The notes below the pieces were generated by a model. That model worked only from the letters and a program-made list of their open reading frames with translations, had not been told where the DNA came from and did not search any database. Made by a program: the position numbers and the translations under genes. Below are positions 42,898 to 49,819 of a stretch of 50,546 bases of DNA, piece after piece (positions within the stretch are counted from its first letter, which is position 1; each line of letters begins with the position of its first letter). Where the stretch lies: the NCBI GenBank assembly GCA_903927345.1, contig CAIYMO010000028.1, forward strand, positions 1 to 50,546. The letters run 5' to 3'. The DNA is from an uncultured Armatimonadota bacterium (lineage in GTDB: Bacteria > Armatimonadota > Fimbriimonadia > Fimbriimonadales > Fimbriimonadaceae).

Positions 42898-43908
42898 ATG
42901 AAGTCCTTCCTGCTTTCCCTGTCGATCGGTGCTCTTGCGCTGTTTGGATGCTCAGGTGGTGAGTCGAATACTGCTGCAAATTCATCTGTTGCATCGCCCG
43001 AAGCCGCCACAACAAGTTTTAAAGTTGCGCTTTTGACCCCTGGTCCCGTCAATGACTCCGGTTGGTCCGCATTGGCTTACGAAGGACTTGAGGCAATCAA
43101 GACTGATCTAGGCGCGGAGACAAGTAACCAGGTTGCTCAAGGCAACGATATTAAGGAATCGATGCGGAGTTATGCTCAGAAGGGCTACAACCTCGTGTTC
43201 GGCCACGGATTCGAGTACAACGAGCCGGGCGTTCAGGTCGCAAAGGACTTTCCCGACACAATCTTCGTTTCGTCATCCGGGAGCGCTACCGCAAAGAACG
43301 CGGGCGCGATTCGTTTTTACCTTGAGCAGTCGTTCTATCTTGCAGGAGTGCTTGCTGCGAACGTAAGCAAGAGCGGCACTGTGGGAATGGTGGGTGGACC
43401 AGACGTTCCAAGCATTCGATCTACCTTTAAAGCCTTCCGAGCTGGTGCAGAAGCGGCAAAGCCAGGGGTGAAGGTTCTTGAGGTCTTCACAGGCAAGAAC
43501 GACGACGTTGCTGCGGCGCGACAGGTTGCTGATACGATGATCAAGAGCGGGGCGGATGTTTTGATTCATCAAGCGAATGCGGCGGCTCAAGGAGTCTTTA
43601 CGGCATGTAAAGATGGCAAGGCTTGGGCGCTCGGGGCGAACCTCAACCAAAACGACAATGAGAGCGGGGTTGTGATTGGAAGCGCAACAATCTCAGCGAA
43701 AGCGGCATTCCTCGAAGTTGCGAAGTTGGTCAAAGAGAAAAAGTTTGACGGAACAGTTGTTCAACTTGGAATGGAGAAGGGCGCGATTGACTTCGTTTTC
43801 AACGACAAACTTAAGAGTCAGCTTCCTGAAGCCGCGATCAAGGCTGTCGAGTCTGCAAAAGCGGACATTCTCAGCGGCAAAATCGTCGCACCAAAAGACA
43901 AGTTCTGA
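42898..43908 (+). CDS. BMP-family ABC transporter substrate-binding lipoprotein
   Basis: 336 residues. Signal peptide with lipobox ALFGC and a Ser/Ala-rich tether. The BMP fold is clear: FKVALLTPGPVNDSGWSALAY, NLVFGHGFEYNEPGVQVAKDF (read in parts), SFYLAGVLAANVSKSGTVGMVGG, DVLIHQANAAAQGVF, and a C-terminal KDKF. Homologues (PnrA, BmpA, Med) bind purine nucleosides, and ring-binding aromatic residues are expected but not verified here. It is the solute-capture part of the import operon; its stop shares one base with the ATPase start (TGATG). Only modestly similar to the solitary BMP protein at 32502. Confidence 0.92.
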   Translation: MKSFLLSLSIGALALFGCSGGESNTAANSSVASPEAATTSFKVALLTPGPVNDSGWSALAYEGLEAIKTDLGAETSNQVAQGNDIKESMRSYAQKGYNLVFGHGFEYNEPGVQVAKDFPDTIFVSSSGSATAKNAGAIRFYLEQSFYLAGVLAANVSKSGTVGMVGGPDVPSIRSTFKAFRAGAEAAKPGVKVLEVFTGKNDDVAAARQVADTMIKSGADVLIHQANAAAQGVFTACKDGKAWALGANLNQNDNESGVVIGSATISAKAAFLEVAKLVKEKKFDGTVVQLGMEKGAIDFVFNDKLKSQLPEAAIKAVESAKADILSGKIVAPKDKF

Positions 43909-45248
43909 TGCCGGGCGGAAGTCTCGTCGCTCAGGAGCTTTCGGTTAACTTCGGTTCACTGAAGGCTCTTGACCGCGTGTCACTAGAGTTTCGATCTGGT
44001 GAAGTCCACGCGGTTGTTGGCGAGAACGGAGCAGGGAAGTCGACTCTGATGAACGTCCTTGCTGGGTTCCTTAACCCTTCGTCGGGGCAGATTCTTTTGG
44101 ACGGAAGCACGATCACTGGCGGTGCTCCCGCTCACCGGGCGAGAGGGATCGAAATGGTTCATCAGCATTTCAGACTCGTGCCGGCTTTTACGGTTGAAGA
44201 AAATCTGCGCCTGGGATTGATGCGCTCGCAGGCCTCGGTCGCTTCCGCACTGGACCTGGCCACAAAACTGGATTGGAATATTTCACCCGGAACGCAGTGC
44301 TCCGAGCTTGGAGTCGGCGAGCGTCAAAGAATTGAGATACTCAAAGCTCTCGCTTCCTCACCTCAAATCGTGATCTTTGATGAGCCGACAGCGGTTCTTT
44401 CTGAAAGCGAGGCCGAGGGCTTGCTGGATTCTCTCAAAGGGCTAGCTGCAAGAGGGCTCACCGTTATTCTCATCGCACACAAACTCGCTGAAGTCTTCGC
44501 CGTGGCGGATCGAATCTCGGTCCTGAAGGGAGGAGTTCTTCAGGGGACCTTTGAGGCGGTAAAGACCAGCCCGGATGAGGTCGCACACCTGATGATCGGT
44601 AGCTCTCTAAAGCTTGCTGCTGCCTCGGAAGTGGAAACTTCAAAGACGTTCGAGTGTAGGAATCTCCACGTGGCGGGCGGATGCCCGATCCAAGACGTCA
44701 GCTTTGAGGTTGGCTTTGGCGAAGTTTTGGGTGTGGGAGGAGTTGATGGAAACGGACAGGTGGAGCTCGCCGAAGCTTTGGCGGGAGTCCGGCCCTCAGA
44801 AGGCAGCCTGACCCCAGTTGGCTCGATTGGATACGTTCCGCAAGATCGGCATGTCGATGGACTCGCACTATCGATGTCGATTCAAGAGAACCTAGACATT
44901 GCCGACTGCGAAGTTGTTGCGGACGGCGCGATTCTAGAATTTGAGATCAAAGCTCAGTCGGGGCGTGTCAAGACCGGAACGCTTTCGGGGGGAAACCAAC
45001 AGAAGGTCGTTCTGGCGCGGGAGTTAGGGCGTAAGCCCGAGCTTCTTGTCGTGGTAAATCCCACGCGCGGTCTTGATGTTCGTGCGGCGGCGTTTGTTTT
45101 GGACAAGATACGAATTGCGGCAAAAGACGGGGCGGCTGTTATCCTCATCTCGACAGATCGGGAAGAGCTCGAAGCAATCGCTAACAGAACACTTTTCTTG
45201 GCAGCTGGGCGTCTGGTGGATAGTGCAACGGAGGCATTGTCGGCGTGA
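43908..45248 (+). CDS. BMP-type ABC transporter ATP-binding protein, two ABC domains
   Basis: 446 residues; relatives such as YufO/NupO are ~500. Domain 1: Walker A GENGAGKST, Q-loop MVHQHFRLVPAFTVEENL, signature LGVGERQRIEILKAL, Walker B IVIFDEPTAVLS. Domain 2: degenerate Walker A GVDGNGQ, YVPQDRHVDGLALSMSIQENL, signature LSGGNQQKVVLARELG, and VNPTRGLDV. The shortening falls in the helical part of domain 2 between the Q-loop region and the signature. It powers the two permeases downstream. Its last bases overlap the first permease (GTGA). Confidence 0.94.
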   Translation: MPGGSLVAQELSVNFGSLKALDRVSLEFRSGEVHAVVGENGAGKSTLMNVLAGFLNPSSGQILLDGSTITGGAPAHRARGIEMVHQHFRLVPAFTVEENLRLGLMRSQASVASALDLATKLDWNISPGTQCSELGVGERQRIEILKALASSPQIVIFDEPTAVLSESEAEGLLDSLKGLAARGLTVILIAHKLAEVFAVADRISVLKGGVLQGTFEAVKTSPDEVAHLMIGSSLKLAAASEVETSKTFECRNLHVAGGCPIQDVSFEVGFGEVLGVGGVDGNGQVELAEALAGVRPSEGSLTPVGSIGYVPQDRHVDGLALSMSIQENLDIADCEVVADGAILEFEIKAQSGRVKTGTLSGGNQQKVVLARELGRKPELLVVVNPTRGLDVRAAAFVLDKIRIAAKDGAAVILISTDREELEAIANRTLFLAAGRLVDSATEALSA

Positions 45249-46255
45249 AGGTTGCAGGACTTGCGATTCTTGGTCTATTCGGCATCCTGGTCGTCGGCCT
45301 CCTCTTAGGAGGCGTTCCAGTCGTTGACGGGCTCAGGCTGTTGTTCCAAGGGGCGTTTGGTGATCGCTTCGCGATTTCACAGTCACTCGTCCGAGCCACA
45401 CCGCTCCTTCTTGCGGGGCTAGGAGTGGCTGTCGCATGGAAGGCGGGTGTATTCAACATCGGTGGTGAGGGTCAGCTGGTAATCGGCGCACTAGCGGGGG
45501 CAACCATTGCTAAGGCTCTGCATGGTTTTGGTATCGCACCTTTGGCGACGATCTCCATCCTGCTAGCGAGCGTCGTGGGGGGTGCTGGATGGGCTGCGGT
45601 GGCAGCGTGGCTCTCCATCAAGCGAGGAGTCAATCTAGTGATCTCCACCATCCTGCTCAATTTTATTGGGCTACAACTCCTTGTGTACGGAGTGGATGGT
45701 CCGTTGCGACGAGCTGGGCAGTCTGCCCCGATGACGGAGCAAGTGCCGGATGCATGGATGCTTTGGAGACCATCGAGGCAGACGGACGTGCACTTCGGGG
45801 TTGTCATTGCGTTGCTACTTTGTATTGCGGTTGGCTACTTTCTGTTCAGAACCCGAAAAGGCTATTTGATGAGGGCGACTGGGGCCAACCCGCAGTTTGT
45901 TCGCGCAAATCGGTATCCCCCTGAGCCAATTCAGTTTCAGGCGATGCTCATCAGTGGAGCACTTTGCGGCTTGGCAGGGGGTGTTCAGTATTTGGGAATC
46001 AATGGTCAACTCACAGCTTCGTTCTCTCAGCAGTACGGGTTCCTGGCGATTCCCGTCGCGCTGGTCGGCGGACTTCATCCTGCTGGTGTTGCGGCTTCGA
46101 GTTTCTTCTTCGGTGCCCTTTTCGCGGGCACATCCAACCTTTCCCGATTTGGGGGGGGAGGAAGCTATTTCGTTTATGTTGTGCAGGGACTGGCCGTACT
46201 CGGACTCTTGGGATACCAGTTCCTTCGGGAGCGGAATGAGGTCACGAATCAATGA
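45245..46255 (+). CDS. BMP-type ABC transporter permease (first)
   Basis: 336 residues, GTG start inside the ATPase stop. About nine membrane helices. Typical landmarks: ATPLLLAGLGVAVAWKAGVFNIGGEGQ, AAWLSIKRGVNLVISTILLNFIGLQLL (read in parts), RATGANPQFVRANRYPP (the cytoplasmic coupling loop), and GFLAIPVALVGGLHPAGV. Homologous to the YufP/NupP class of guanosine/purine nucleoside permeases. Overlaps the second permease by ATGA. Confidence 0.93.
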   Translation: MKVAGLAILGLFGILVVGLLLGGVPVVDGLRLLFQGAFGDRFAISQSLVRATPLLLAGLGVAVAWKAGVFNIGGEGQLVIGALAGATIAKALHGFGIAPLATISILLASVVGGAGWAAVAAWLSIKRGVNLVISTILLNFIGLQLLVYGVDGPLRRAGQSAPMTEQVPDAWMLWRPSRQTDVHFGVVIALLLCIAVGYFLFRTRKGYLMRATGANPQFVRANRYPPEPIQFQAMLISGALCGLAGGVQYLGINGQLTASFSQQYGFLAIPVALVGGLHPAGVAASSFFFGALFAGTSNLSRFGGGGSYFVYVVQGLAVLGLLGYQFLRERNEVTNQ

Positions 46256-47118
46256 TTGATGCAGTCTTGATTCTCCGATATGCGGCGCCGATCGCCTTTG
46301 CTGCAGTGGGCGAGACTGCGGGTCAACGAGCTGGAATGATCAATATCGGGCTTGAAGGCACGATGCTTACAAGCGCATTTGTCGCGACCAAAGTGAGTTT
46401 GGCTACCGGAAGTCCATGGGTGGGAATCATTGTTGGTGCCGTCGCTGGCCTGATCTTGGCCCTGCTTACAGGCGTTTTCACCATCAGGATGCAACAAGAT
46501 CAGGTGGTTGTTGGGACGGCGGTGAATCTGTTGTGCTTTGGACTGTGCGGGATGTTGTTTGAACGTTGGAACGGTGCAACCGGTCAGCTTCTGTCTTTGC
46601 CTCCGCTTCCGAAGTTTGCCGGTGGTTTGGACGTGGTTTTGTTGTTGCTGGTCGTATCTGCGGTAGCGATTAGTTTTGCTTTGTTCCGCACAGAATGGGG
46701 TTTAAGAGCACGGACCGCGGGAGAGTATCCGGCCTCCCTAGAAGCGGCAGGCTACTCGGTGATTCGGACTCAGTTCCAAGCTCTGCTCATCTCTGGGCTG
46801 ATGGCGGGGTTAGGCGGAGCGTATTATGCAATAGGAGTCGCTGGTTCGTTTGCGCCAGACATGATTTCAGGTCGTGGATTCATGGCAATTGCAATCGTAA
46901 CATTCGCTCGATGGAAGCCCATTTGGGGTTTGCTGTCCGCGTGCCTTGTCGGCTACTTTGAGAGCCTTCAATACCAACTGCAAATGACACACCAGGACAT
47001 TCCAAAATCGCTCTTGATTGCTTTGCCTTACGCAGCCACTCTGCTGATCTTAGTGTTCTCTGGACGGTCGTCTAACGCCCCGGCCGCGCTTGGTCAGCCC
47101 TACAAGGGGATGCGATGA
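46252..47118 (+). CDS. BMP-type ABC transporter permease (second)
   Basis: 288 residues, ~8 helices. Landmarks: RYAAPIAFAAVGETAGQRAGMINIGLEGTM (read in parts), QQDQVVVGTAVNLLCFGL, LRARTAGEYPASLEAAGYSV (coupling loop), and GRGFMAIAIVTFARWKPIWG. It matches YufQ/NupQ-type permeases. ATG lies in the stop of the first permease, and its own stop is overlapped by 4 bases by the PTPS-like gene, so all five products are co-translated. Confidence 0.93.
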   Translation: MIDAVLILRYAAPIAFAAVGETAGQRAGMINIGLEGTMLTSAFVATKVSLATGSPWVGIIVGAVAGLILALLTGVFTIRMQQDQVVVGTAVNLLCFGLCGMLFERWNGATGQLLSLPPLPKFAGGLDVVLLLLVVSAVAISFALFRTEWGLRARTAGEYPASLEAAGYSVIRTQFQALLISGLMAGLGGAYYAIGVAGSFAPDMISGRGFMAIAIVTFARWKPIWGLLSACLVGYFESLQYQLQMTHQDIPKSLLIALPYAATLLILVFSGRSSNAPAALGQPYKGMR

Positions 47119-47930
47119 CACTGAGCATGACTCGCAGCCTGACTTTTTCGGCGGGGCACCGGTATTGGTTCGCGCATCTGTCTGAAGCTGAGAACCGGGA
47201 AATCTTCGGACAGTGGGCGTCGCCGTTCAGCCATGGGCACAACTATGGTCTGCAAGTCACCGTTGAAGGCCAGGTCAACGTGGCGAATGGAATGATCGTG
47301 AACATCAAGGATGTTGACGCGGTGGTCAAGGCTGAACTGTTGCCACAGTTTTCCAACCGGAGTCTGAACGACGAAGTGGAATTCTTTGCCGACCGCGCTC
47401 CCACCGTTGAGAACATCCTGAGCTACACATGGTCCGAGATCAATCGAATAGGACTGCCCAAAGAGGTGACGATGACTCACCTGAAACTAGAAGAAACTTC
47501 CACCCTTTACGGAGAATATGACGGTATGAAAACATCTTTGACCCGAATCTATGAGTTTGCAGCGAGTCACCGTTTGCATGCTCCGGCGCTTTCTCAGGAT
47601 GAGAACCTGAAGCTTTTCGGGAAGTGCAATAACCCGGCAGGTCACGGTCACAACTATGTTCTCGAAGTGACGGTGAGCGGAACGCCAAACGAGCAAACCG
47701 GCATGATCTGTTCTCTCGATGACATTGATTCGATCGTTAATGAGCGCGTCGTTGATCGGTATGATCACCGGAACTTGAATGAAGACATTTCGGAGTTTTC
47801 GGGTAGGGCTACGACAAGCGAGAACGTCGCGATAGAGATCTTTTCGCGACTTGAATCACACCTTCCTGCTCAACTTGAACGAATCAGGCTGTATGAAACG
47901 GCTCGAAATATGTTCGAAGTTTGTCGCTAG
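47115..47930 (+). CDS. tandem 6-pyruvoyl-tetrahydropterin-synthase / QueD-like protein, first domain degenerate
   Basis: 271 residues, twice the size of a QueD or PTPS subunit. Domain 1 (1-135) has zinc His15 (FSAGHRYW) and His40/His42 (SHGHNY), but Trp34 stands in the Cys position and Ser80-Asn81 replace the Asp-His pair. Domain 2 (140-271) keeps all: zinc His152, 177, 179, Cys171 in FGKCNNPAGHGHNY, Asp217-His218 in YDHRNLNE, and Glu261 in YETARNMFE. QueD converts dihydroneopterin triphosphate to 6-carboxytetrahydropterin, PTPS makes the biopterin precursor. Whether domain 2 does either is unknown. It is joined by ATGA to the nucleoside-type ABC operon, which suggests a salvage role; this is inference. 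Converges on the debranching gene with a 4-base overlap. Confidence 0.9.
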   Translation: MTLSMTRSLTFSAGHRYWFAHLSEAENREIFGQWASPFSHGHNYGLQVTVEGQVNVANGMIVNIKDVDAVVKAELLPQFSNRSLNDEVEFFADRAPTVENILSYTWSEINRIGLPKEVTMTHLKLEETSTLYGEYDGMKTSLTRIYEFAASHRLHAPALSQDENLKLFGKCNNPAGHGHNYVLEVTVSGTPNEQTGMICSLDDIDSIVNERVVDRYDHRNLNEDISEFSGRATTSENVAIEIFSRLESHLPAQLERIRLYETARNMFEVCR

Positions 47931-49819
47931 TCGCCGCCGCAGTCTTCATTCCACGCGCGGAGATACTCACCAACGCTCCAAGCTTGCCAGGGGCACCCGT
48001 TGGGTCGGTGAGGCGCATCGCCGTCGTAGCACTCGCTGATGCCGCCTAGTCCTGCCTCAACCAGCATCTCGCCTGCATGTTTAAGCACTTTTCTGAGTTG
48101 GGATACGTCGCCGCCGTAACGAGCTTTTGCGGAGATATACGAGCCCATCAACCAGGGCCATACCGTTCCTTGGTGGTATGCGGCGTCTAGATCCCGCACT
48201 GGTCCCTCGAATCTGCTAACGTAACTTGGCTCATTCGGGCCGAGAGTTCGGAGACCAACGGTTGTGAGTAGGTCGCGTTCAACGACTTCTAAAGCTCGGA
48301 CAGCGTGATCTTGAGAACAAGGCGAGAAGGGAAGCGACATTGCAATCACTTGGTTCGGCCGGAGGGAGGCATCACCGGGTTCGATTGTGTCGAAGTAATG
48401 GCCTCTTGCTTCGTGCCAGAATTTCTCCTCAAAGCTCTTGGCTGCGAGGTTCGCGAGCGTTTCTTCAGCTGACCAGTCAGAACCAAGTTTTGCTTTGAGC
48501 CAACATGTCACGCGTAACAGGTTGATCCAAAGGCCATTGATCTCCACTGGCTTACCGTGACGCGGTGTCACGACCCAATCGCCAATCTTTGCATCCATCC
48601 ATGTGAGTTGCAGACCAGGCTCACCTTGTTTGAGCAACCCATCTGAAGGATCGACAATGATGCCAAAGTCAGTTCCATGGCGGTGGTGCCAAATGATCTG
48701 ATTGAGGACCTCAAGCATTTCTTTTCCGAAACTCTCATCCCACTCAGCGAGGAGTGTTTTATAGATGGCGTTTCCGAACCAAAGGGTCGCATCAACGGTG
48801 TTGTAGTCAGGAATCTCGCCCTTTTCGACAAATCGGTTTGGAATCAGTCCGTGTCGCATTTGAGAGGCGTAATCTCGAAGGATGTTGCGCGCTTCCGAAA
48901 TGTGACCCGTTTGCAAACAGATACCGGGGAGCGCGATCATCGTGTCTCGGCCCCAGTCACTGAACCAGGGATAGCCAGCGAGGATTGTCGTTCGGGACTG
49001 AGTTTTGACGAGGAAGTTTTGCGCCGCCTGTTCTAGTTTCTTCGATAGCGAGACGGTGCTCTGGTCGGTAGACGGAGGGATATCTGAGACGGTTGGCTCC
49101 CCGACGGATGCAGAAAGAGTGATGCTTGCACCTGGCGCCAGCGAATAGAGAAGTTCGCACGGACAGAATAGATCATCCCGAGGATCTAGGCCCCGTTCAA
49201 GCTCCTTTTGATGTTCGAATCGGTAGTACCAACCCGCGACCGGGGATCGGGTGGCTCCGAGATGGGAGAGAACTACCTCAATCCCGTCTTCCTCGATTAC
49301 GGTTTGATCGGAGCCGATCTGGATTGACTGGGGATAGCTGTCTCGCTCAGAAAAGTTTGCGTGGAAGTCGCGGTGGCATACAAGTGGTCGCAATGACAGC
49401 TCTACGGACTTGGTGCCGGTGTTCTTGTACTCAAGCAAGACCTGGTTCTGTCCGGGTACCAGATAGATCGTTTTTTGAATCTGGACATGACCTCGTCGGT
49501 AGACCCAAGTTGCCCGGTCTGAGACGGTGAATGATTCGAGTTGTTCGAAACCATCTGGATGAACTGCACCTGGATATTGATTCGAACTGAGACACAGCTT
49601 GGTCGATCCGTATGTCGCCACTCCGTCGACGGCGGCCAGTAAGAGCCTACGATCGGTAGGCGGGTTGATCGCGGCGATCAATAGTCCATGGTAGCGCCGG
49701 GTATTGATCCCGCTGGCGGTACCCATTGCGAACCCGCCGATCCCATTAGGCAAGAGCCACTCGCTTTTTGTGGAAACACCGAGGTTTCGACACTGCTGGC
49801 TATCGAGCGAGTAGATCAT
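47927..49819 (-). CDS. amylo-alpha-1,6-glucosidase (archaeal-type glycogen debranching enzyme)
   Basis: 630 residues. N-terminal domain begins EWLLPNGIGGFAMGTASGINTRRYHGLL, the mark of GDE_N; the C-terminal (alpha/alpha)6 barrel has GYPWFSDWGRDTMIALPGI with the catalytic acid region, TVDATLWFGNAI and DLDAAYHQGTVWPW. It cuts alpha-1,6 branch points of glycogen in the cytoplasm. Start ATG 49819 is five bases after a TATAGT box, another near-leaderless case. It is not clustered with other glycogen genes here. Confidence 0.93.
   Translation of the reverse strand: MIYSLDSQQCRNLGVSTKSEWLLPNGIGGFAMGTASGINTRRYHGLLIAAINPPTDRRLLLAAVDGVATYGSTKLCLSSNQYPGAVHPDGFEQLESFTVSDRATWVYRRGHVQIQKTIYLVPGQNQVLLEYKNTGTKSVELSLRPLVCHRDFHANFSERDSYPQSIQIGSDQTVIEEDGIEVVLSHLGATRSPVAGWYYRFEHQKELERGLDPRDDLFCPCELLYSLAPGASITLSASVGEPTVSDIPPSTDQSTVSLSKKLEQAAQNFLVKTQSRTTILAGYPWFSDWGRDTMIALPGICLQTGHISEARNILRDYASQMRHGLIPNRFVEKGEIPDYNTVDATLWFGNAIYKTLLAEWDESFGKEMLEVLNQIIWHHRHGTDFGIIVDPSDGLLKQGEPGLQLTWMDAKIGDWVVTPRHGKPVEINGLWINLLRVTCWLKAKLGSDWSAEETLANLAAKSFEEKFWHEARGHYFDTIEPGDASLRPNQVIAMSLPFSPCSQDHAVRALEVVERDLLTTVGLRTLGPNEPSYVSRFEGPVRDLDAAYHQGTVWPWLMGSYISAKARYGGDVSQLRKVLKHAGEMLVEAGLGGISECYDGDAPHRPNGCPWQAWSVGEYLRAWNEDCGGD

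Follow-up and report, generated by a model that had tools for sequence, protein, structure and literature searches.

Tandem PTPS gene and its flanking genes

The window, which is the whole analysed stretch of 50,546 nucleotides, carries a Bmp/PnrA-type ABC importer operon (42898-47118) that runs directly into a gene encoding two 6-pyruvoyl-tetrahydropterin synthase (PTPS) domains in one chain. The operon encodes, all on the forward strand, a Bmp/PnrA-type substrate-binding protein (42898-43908, PF02608), the importer ATPase (43908-45248, PF00005), a first permease (45245-46255, PF02653), and a last permease (BPD_transp_2; 46252-47118, PF02653), whose stop codon shares a four-base overlap (ATGA) with the start codon of the PTPS gene. 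In 54 of 69 Armatimonadota loci, this permease gene is likewise found directly next to the PTPS gene. When compared with NCBIfam, the importer genes resembled a putative B6 ABC transporter, but weakly and below the cut-off. Candidate substrates that would fit the biopterin pathway are a pterin and a purine nucleoside. On the other side, a glycogen debranching enzyme gene (47927-49819, reverse strand) is convergent with the PTPS gene, and the ends of the two genes overlap by four bases.

The tandem PTPS gene (47115-47930, forward strand) has an ATG start and a stop-free open frame of 271 amino acids with two PF01242 stretches. Domain 1 (D1, residues 5-135, 47127-47519, forward strand), compared alone with PF01242 of Pfam, scored 78.6 bits (E 4.8e-22), and domain 2 (D2, residues 142-269, 47538-47921, forward strand) scored 107.5 bits (E 5.4e-31). 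Both scores exceed the gathering score of 22.4 and assign each half to the PTPS family (COG0720), confirming the first-pass annotation on the presence of two PTPS domains per chain. D1 and D2 are identical at 48 of 134 aligned residues.

Catalytic and zinc-binding residues of the two domains

We mapped the residues of D1 and D2 by alignment onto human PTPS. In D2, the zinc-binding histidines are H152, H177, and H179, the catalytic cysteine is C171 (47625-47627), the Asp-His pair is D217-H218 (47763-47768), and the pterin-side glutamates are E236 and E261, so that the PTPS-II residue set (Cys-Asp-His triad, three zinc histidines, and pterin-side Glu) is complete. The best PDB match of D2 is rat/human PTPS, at about 42-44% identity. 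In D1, the zinc histidines H15, H40, and H42 are present and E99 and E127 align with the pterin-side E108 and E134 of human PTPS, whereas the cysteine position is occupied by W34 (47214-47216) and the Asp-His position by S80-N81 (47352-47357), which leaves D1 a catalytically disabled PTPS domain. The alignment agrees with every residue named in the first-pass annotation (the three zinc histidines of each half, Trp34, Ser80-Asn81, Cys171, Asp217, and His218).

The D2 motif C171-NNPAG-H177-G-H179 corresponds to CxxxxxHGH, the signature of PTPS-II (PMC5041015). The equivalent region of D1, WASPFSHGH, matches neither ExxHGH nor CxxxHGH nor CxxxxxHGH. A different reaction might be catalysed by D1 through other residues, as zinc and both glutamates are retained and PTPS-III enzymes, which carry the ExxHGH motif, perform another reaction (PMC5041015). 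However, the PTPS-III motif is found neither in D1 (ASPFSHGH) nor in D2 (NNPAGHGH), D1 also lacks CxxxHGH, and the residue at its cysteine position differs from lineage to lineage. We consider a separate D1 reaction very unlikely.

Conservation of the live/disabled division

Residue conservation was counted in 79 aligned tandem proteins, which are conserved over their full length. The D2 cysteine, zinc histidines, and glutamates are present in all 79 and the D2 Asp-His pair in 77. In D1, Cys and His never occur together and the complete triad is absent in 79 of 79. Relatives with Cys, Asp, and His in both halves, which would have contradicted the reading of one dead and one live domain, were looked for in these 79 proteins and not found, and that reading is borne out by the conservation. 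The full triad, zinc, and glutamate set is present in human PTPS and in six bacterial single-domain relatives. As about eighty related bacteria divide the roles alike, the protein is a conserved enzyme/pseudo-enzyme pair rather than the product of a decaying gene. A pseudogene or a sequencing error was ruled out by the recurrence of the pattern in 79 proteins. D1 has changed somewhat faster, with a mean pairwise identity of 54% vs 61% for D2 among the first 54 sequences of the alignment, almost all from the family of the window species.

The residues replacing the D1 triad vary among lineages. The cysteine position is Trp in 52 of the 79 proteins and Ile, Leu, Tyr, or Phe in 11 more. At the Asp-His position, Asp-Gln (34/79) and Asp-Gly (18/79) are found, and in most relatives the Asp is retained and only the His is changed; the Ser-Asn pair is particular to the window species. 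D1 in the family of the window species mostly has Trp with Asp-Gln or Asp-Gly, and both Cys and His are missing from D1 of the window species and of almost every member of its family. D1 of Bacillales has Cys with Asp-Gly, and D1 of family f2 has Ala, Thr, or Leu with Asp-His. Two tandem proteins (L068:6363-7187 and L069:6001-6840) have the D2 catalytic His replaced by Phe and Tyr, respectively, and a D1 without Cys but with Asp-His. In a Phycisphaerae PTPS (L103:7344-8192), the N-terminal domain is too degenerate for Pfam and its zinc ligands are gone, while the fusion is kept.

The binding pocket of D1 is conserved. The three zinc histidines are present in 78 of 79 proteins and both pterin-side glutamates in all 79. 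Eight D1 columns are conserved in at least 78 rows, and they include all five zinc/pterin pocket residues (hypergeometric P 1.5e-7). D1 probably still binds zinc and perhaps also binds pterin. One sub-case of our preferred reading, given below, is that D1 is a regulatory half, which would bind substrate or product without turnover and control D2 or the pathway. The retention of the pocket among the most conserved D1 columns, despite the lost catalysis, points in this direction. On the other hand, the bulky residue at the cysteine position of most of the tandem proteins may fill the pocket, zinc kept for folding would yield much of the same conservation, and the Phycisphaerae protein has kept the fusion after losing the D1 pocket altogether. 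We regard a regulatory D1 as a tentative possibility.

Distribution and history of the fusion

A search of 101 genomes gave a PTPS match of some kind in 90, the weakest of which were single-domain matches. The tandem protein is present at full or near full length in most of the 101 genomes. Most of the related Armatimonadota genomes in this search have the fusion; the exact Ser-Asn replacement is not shared. A separate scan found the tandem protein in Fimbriimonadaceae and in Bacillales (Paenibacillus, Lysinibacillus, Anoxybacillus, and others). The fusion had also been called unfamiliar from described enzymes. This holds for the literature searched, in which we found no description of a two-domain PTPS, but the fusion is not unique, being common in Armatimonadota and present in Bacillales. 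The family, fold, and pathway are already known; what is new is the conserved division of tandem PTPS into a live and a disabled half.

In Acidobacteriota, the two halves are adjacent separate genes (nine pairs: L086, L088-L091, and L093-L096). Each of the nine pairs has Ala and Asp-His at the triad positions of its first gene product and a complete set in its second. A tree of 103 domains over 138 columns, in which many forks are weak and the rooting is not established, placed the 37 sampled D1 domains in a single group (99/94). The Acidobacteriota first genes branch off between this group and all other domains; D2, the second genes of the pairs, and single-domain PTPS fall together (92/87). 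This arrangement is consistent with an ancient duplication that produced a first and a second type in a lasting order, with fusion or fission coming later.

The retained Asp-His pairs bear on whether the active site is composed of residues from both domains, combining the D2 Cys with the D1 Asp-His or the reverse, so that neither half would be dead. D1-type units keep Asp-His without Cys in the Acidobacteriota pairs and in family f2, and the residues of L068 and L069 are complementary, which suggests a composite active site in f2. The triad of PTPS is intersubunit according to the title of Burgisser 1995, cited in PMC7546909. However, D1 of the window species and of almost all members of its family supplies neither Cys nor His, the full triad of D2 is kept in 77 of 79 proteins, and D1 of Bacillales shows the opposite loss. 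A composite site is unlikely as the general explanation and may be limited to f2.

Biopterin and queuosine pathways

The gene neighbours of the tandem PTPS in relatives belong to the biopterin pathway. The Bacillales gene is flanked by folE on one side and an SDR gene on the other. At L063, a phenylalanine hydroxylase gene is located upstream in the divergent orientation and folE downstream. Of the 69 Armatimonadota loci, some of which are short, 25 have an SDR gene directly downstream and 7 have folE next to the PTPS gene. The SDR beside the tandem PTPS in relatives is sepiapterin-reductase-like. FolE, this sepiapterin-reductase-like SDR, or an aromatic amino acid hydroxylase is associated with the tandem PTPS by neighbourhood in relatives. 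At L079:7397-16798 and similar Bacillales loci, the conserved cluster extends as folE, tandem PTPS, SDR, HATPase, hydrolase, AMP-binding ligase, a protein of unknown family, STAS, and SpoIIE-type phosphatase, so that the biopterin genes are accompanied by an acyl ligase and a regulator of the partner-switching type.

The window species' own genome encodes a phenylalanine 4-monooxygenase (PAH) above the NCBIfam cut-off, a pterin-4a-carbinolamine dehydratase (PCD), and FolE2, none of them adjacent to the tandem PTPS gene. No FolE1 was found in this genome. The genome thus combines FolE2, without FolE1, with phenylalanine hydroxylase; the loci concerned are C32:41558-42304 and C48:26769-27458. 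The genome has no close copy of the SDR that adjoins PTPS in relatives; its SDRs are at 25-32% identity (best match 31%). Among genomes at least 90% complete, 67 have both the tandem PTPS and PAH, 6 the tandem PTPS only, 2 PAH only, and 8 neither, although these genomes are related and are not independent evidence.

The first-pass annotation had described the protein as QueD-like, and the QueD family model TIGR03367 (NCBIfam) indeed scored the whole tandem at 108, above its cut-off of 89. This score is the sum of two stretches, and each half alone (44.8 and 67.8 bits) is under the cut-off. The CxxxHGH motif of QueD is absent, as the spacing in D2 is five residues and D1 has no Cys. The own genome contains a separate QueD-like gene with CxxxHGH as well as a QueC gene. 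The D2 motif, the neighbours in relatives, and the own-genome gene set point to PTPS-II, and the QueD identity was rejected; a queuosine-pathway enzyme with a spare domain is extremely unlikely. Such PTPS can be mistaken for QueD because their halves pass the QueD cut-off only together.

Structural model and assembly

The AlphaFold2 model of the tandem protein is confident throughout (pLDDT 96.9, pTM 0.91). In the model, the last strand of D1 (131-135) leads through a four-residue turn into the first strand of D2 (140-152). D2 superposes on human/rat PTPS (1gtq, 3i2b) with an rmsd of 1.3-2.0 Å (1.3 Å over 134 residues). The whole-chain model aligned with uricase over 222 residues (Z 12.7, rmsd 4.3) and with GTP cyclohydrolase IB (FolE2) over 198 residues (Z 11.1). 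The modelled chain has the bimodular, uricase-like arrangement of two side-by-side T-fold domains.

PTPS is a standard example of a catalytic triad shared between subunits. The enzyme is normally a dimer of trimers, with two stacked rings of three (PMC7546909). A three-domain ring cannot be assembled from whole chains that each contribute two side-by-side domains, so an even-numbered ring is predicted from the model, and the fusion may plausibly determine the shape of the oligomer. A normal hexamer in which rings of D1 and of D2 are stacked was also considered. It is disfavoured by the short D1-D2 loop, which makes the domains sheet neighbours. Moreover, should the triad span both rings, as in the rat structure, every site in this species would miss a residue.

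Proposed function

We consider it likely that the tandem protein is a bimodular PTPS-II, or tetrahydrobiopterin synthase, with catalysis in D2 and D1 as a non-catalytic partner; here we infer the activity, the oligomer, and the role of D1. The protein would perform the second step of tetrahydrobiopterin synthesis and provide the cofactor for the genome's own phenylalanine hydroxylase, which is encoded elsewhere. D2 would carry the chemistry, and the working intersubunit triad would form between D2 of one chain and D2 of another, because D1 of the window species supplies neither Cys nor Asp-His. D1 would stem from an old duplication, after which its triad residues disappeared while the domain itself persisted as a fixed ring neighbour of D2, joined side by side as in uricase. 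It may be a zinc-stabilised structural half or a pterin-binding half without turnover, possibly regulatory; the bulky residue at the D1 cysteine position favours the former and the conservation of the pocket allows the latter. Some observations count against this proposal. Six tandem-bearing genomes at least 90% complete have no PAH match, the own genome has neither FolE1 nor a close SDR copy for the reductase step, and L068 and L069, with the D2 His lost and the D1 Asp-His kept, do not fit a simple rule of D2-only catalysis.

A broader and more speculative proposal, which we hold to be possible but doubtful, concerns a biopterin synthase of wide occurrence. Its pseudo-enzyme half, fused or encoded alongside, would keep the zinc/pterin pocket as a regulatory or ligand site, turn the usual three-fold ring into an even-numbered uricase-like one, and in some lineages lend Asp-His to the live half; in Armatimonadota, the enzyme would be coupled to the Bmp-type importer. 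Already in the preferred reading, an old duplication has divided the roles, with catalysis retained by one half and only the binding pocket by the other; the halves are fused in Armatimonadota and Bacillales and encoded by adjacent genes in Acidobacteriota. The family offers a natural test of what non-catalytic subunits give a T-fold ring, and the tandem protein marks many bacteria as likely tetrahydrobiopterin makers.

Comparison with known systems

D2 resembles the PTPS-II enzymes of rat and human (1gtq, 3i2b) in fold, triad, zinc histidines, glutamates, and the CxxxxxHGH motif. The known PTPS chains have one domain, whereas the window protein fuses two, the first without the triad. QueD (PTPS-I) shares the Pfam family and the zinc and triad residues with the tandem PTPS, but it is a single-domain protein of the queuosine pathway with CxxxHGH, in contrast to the CxxxxxHGH and the biopterin neighbours, seen in relatives, of the window protein. 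The split pairs of Acidobacteriota are like the fusion in placing the Cys-less unit first and the complete unit second, in genes that overlap or nearly do so, and unlike the window protein in being two genes and in retaining Asp-His in the first unit. Uricase and FolE2, like the tandem PTPS model, hold two T-fold domains side by side in a single chain, although their sequence identity to it is 5-9% and their chemistry is different.
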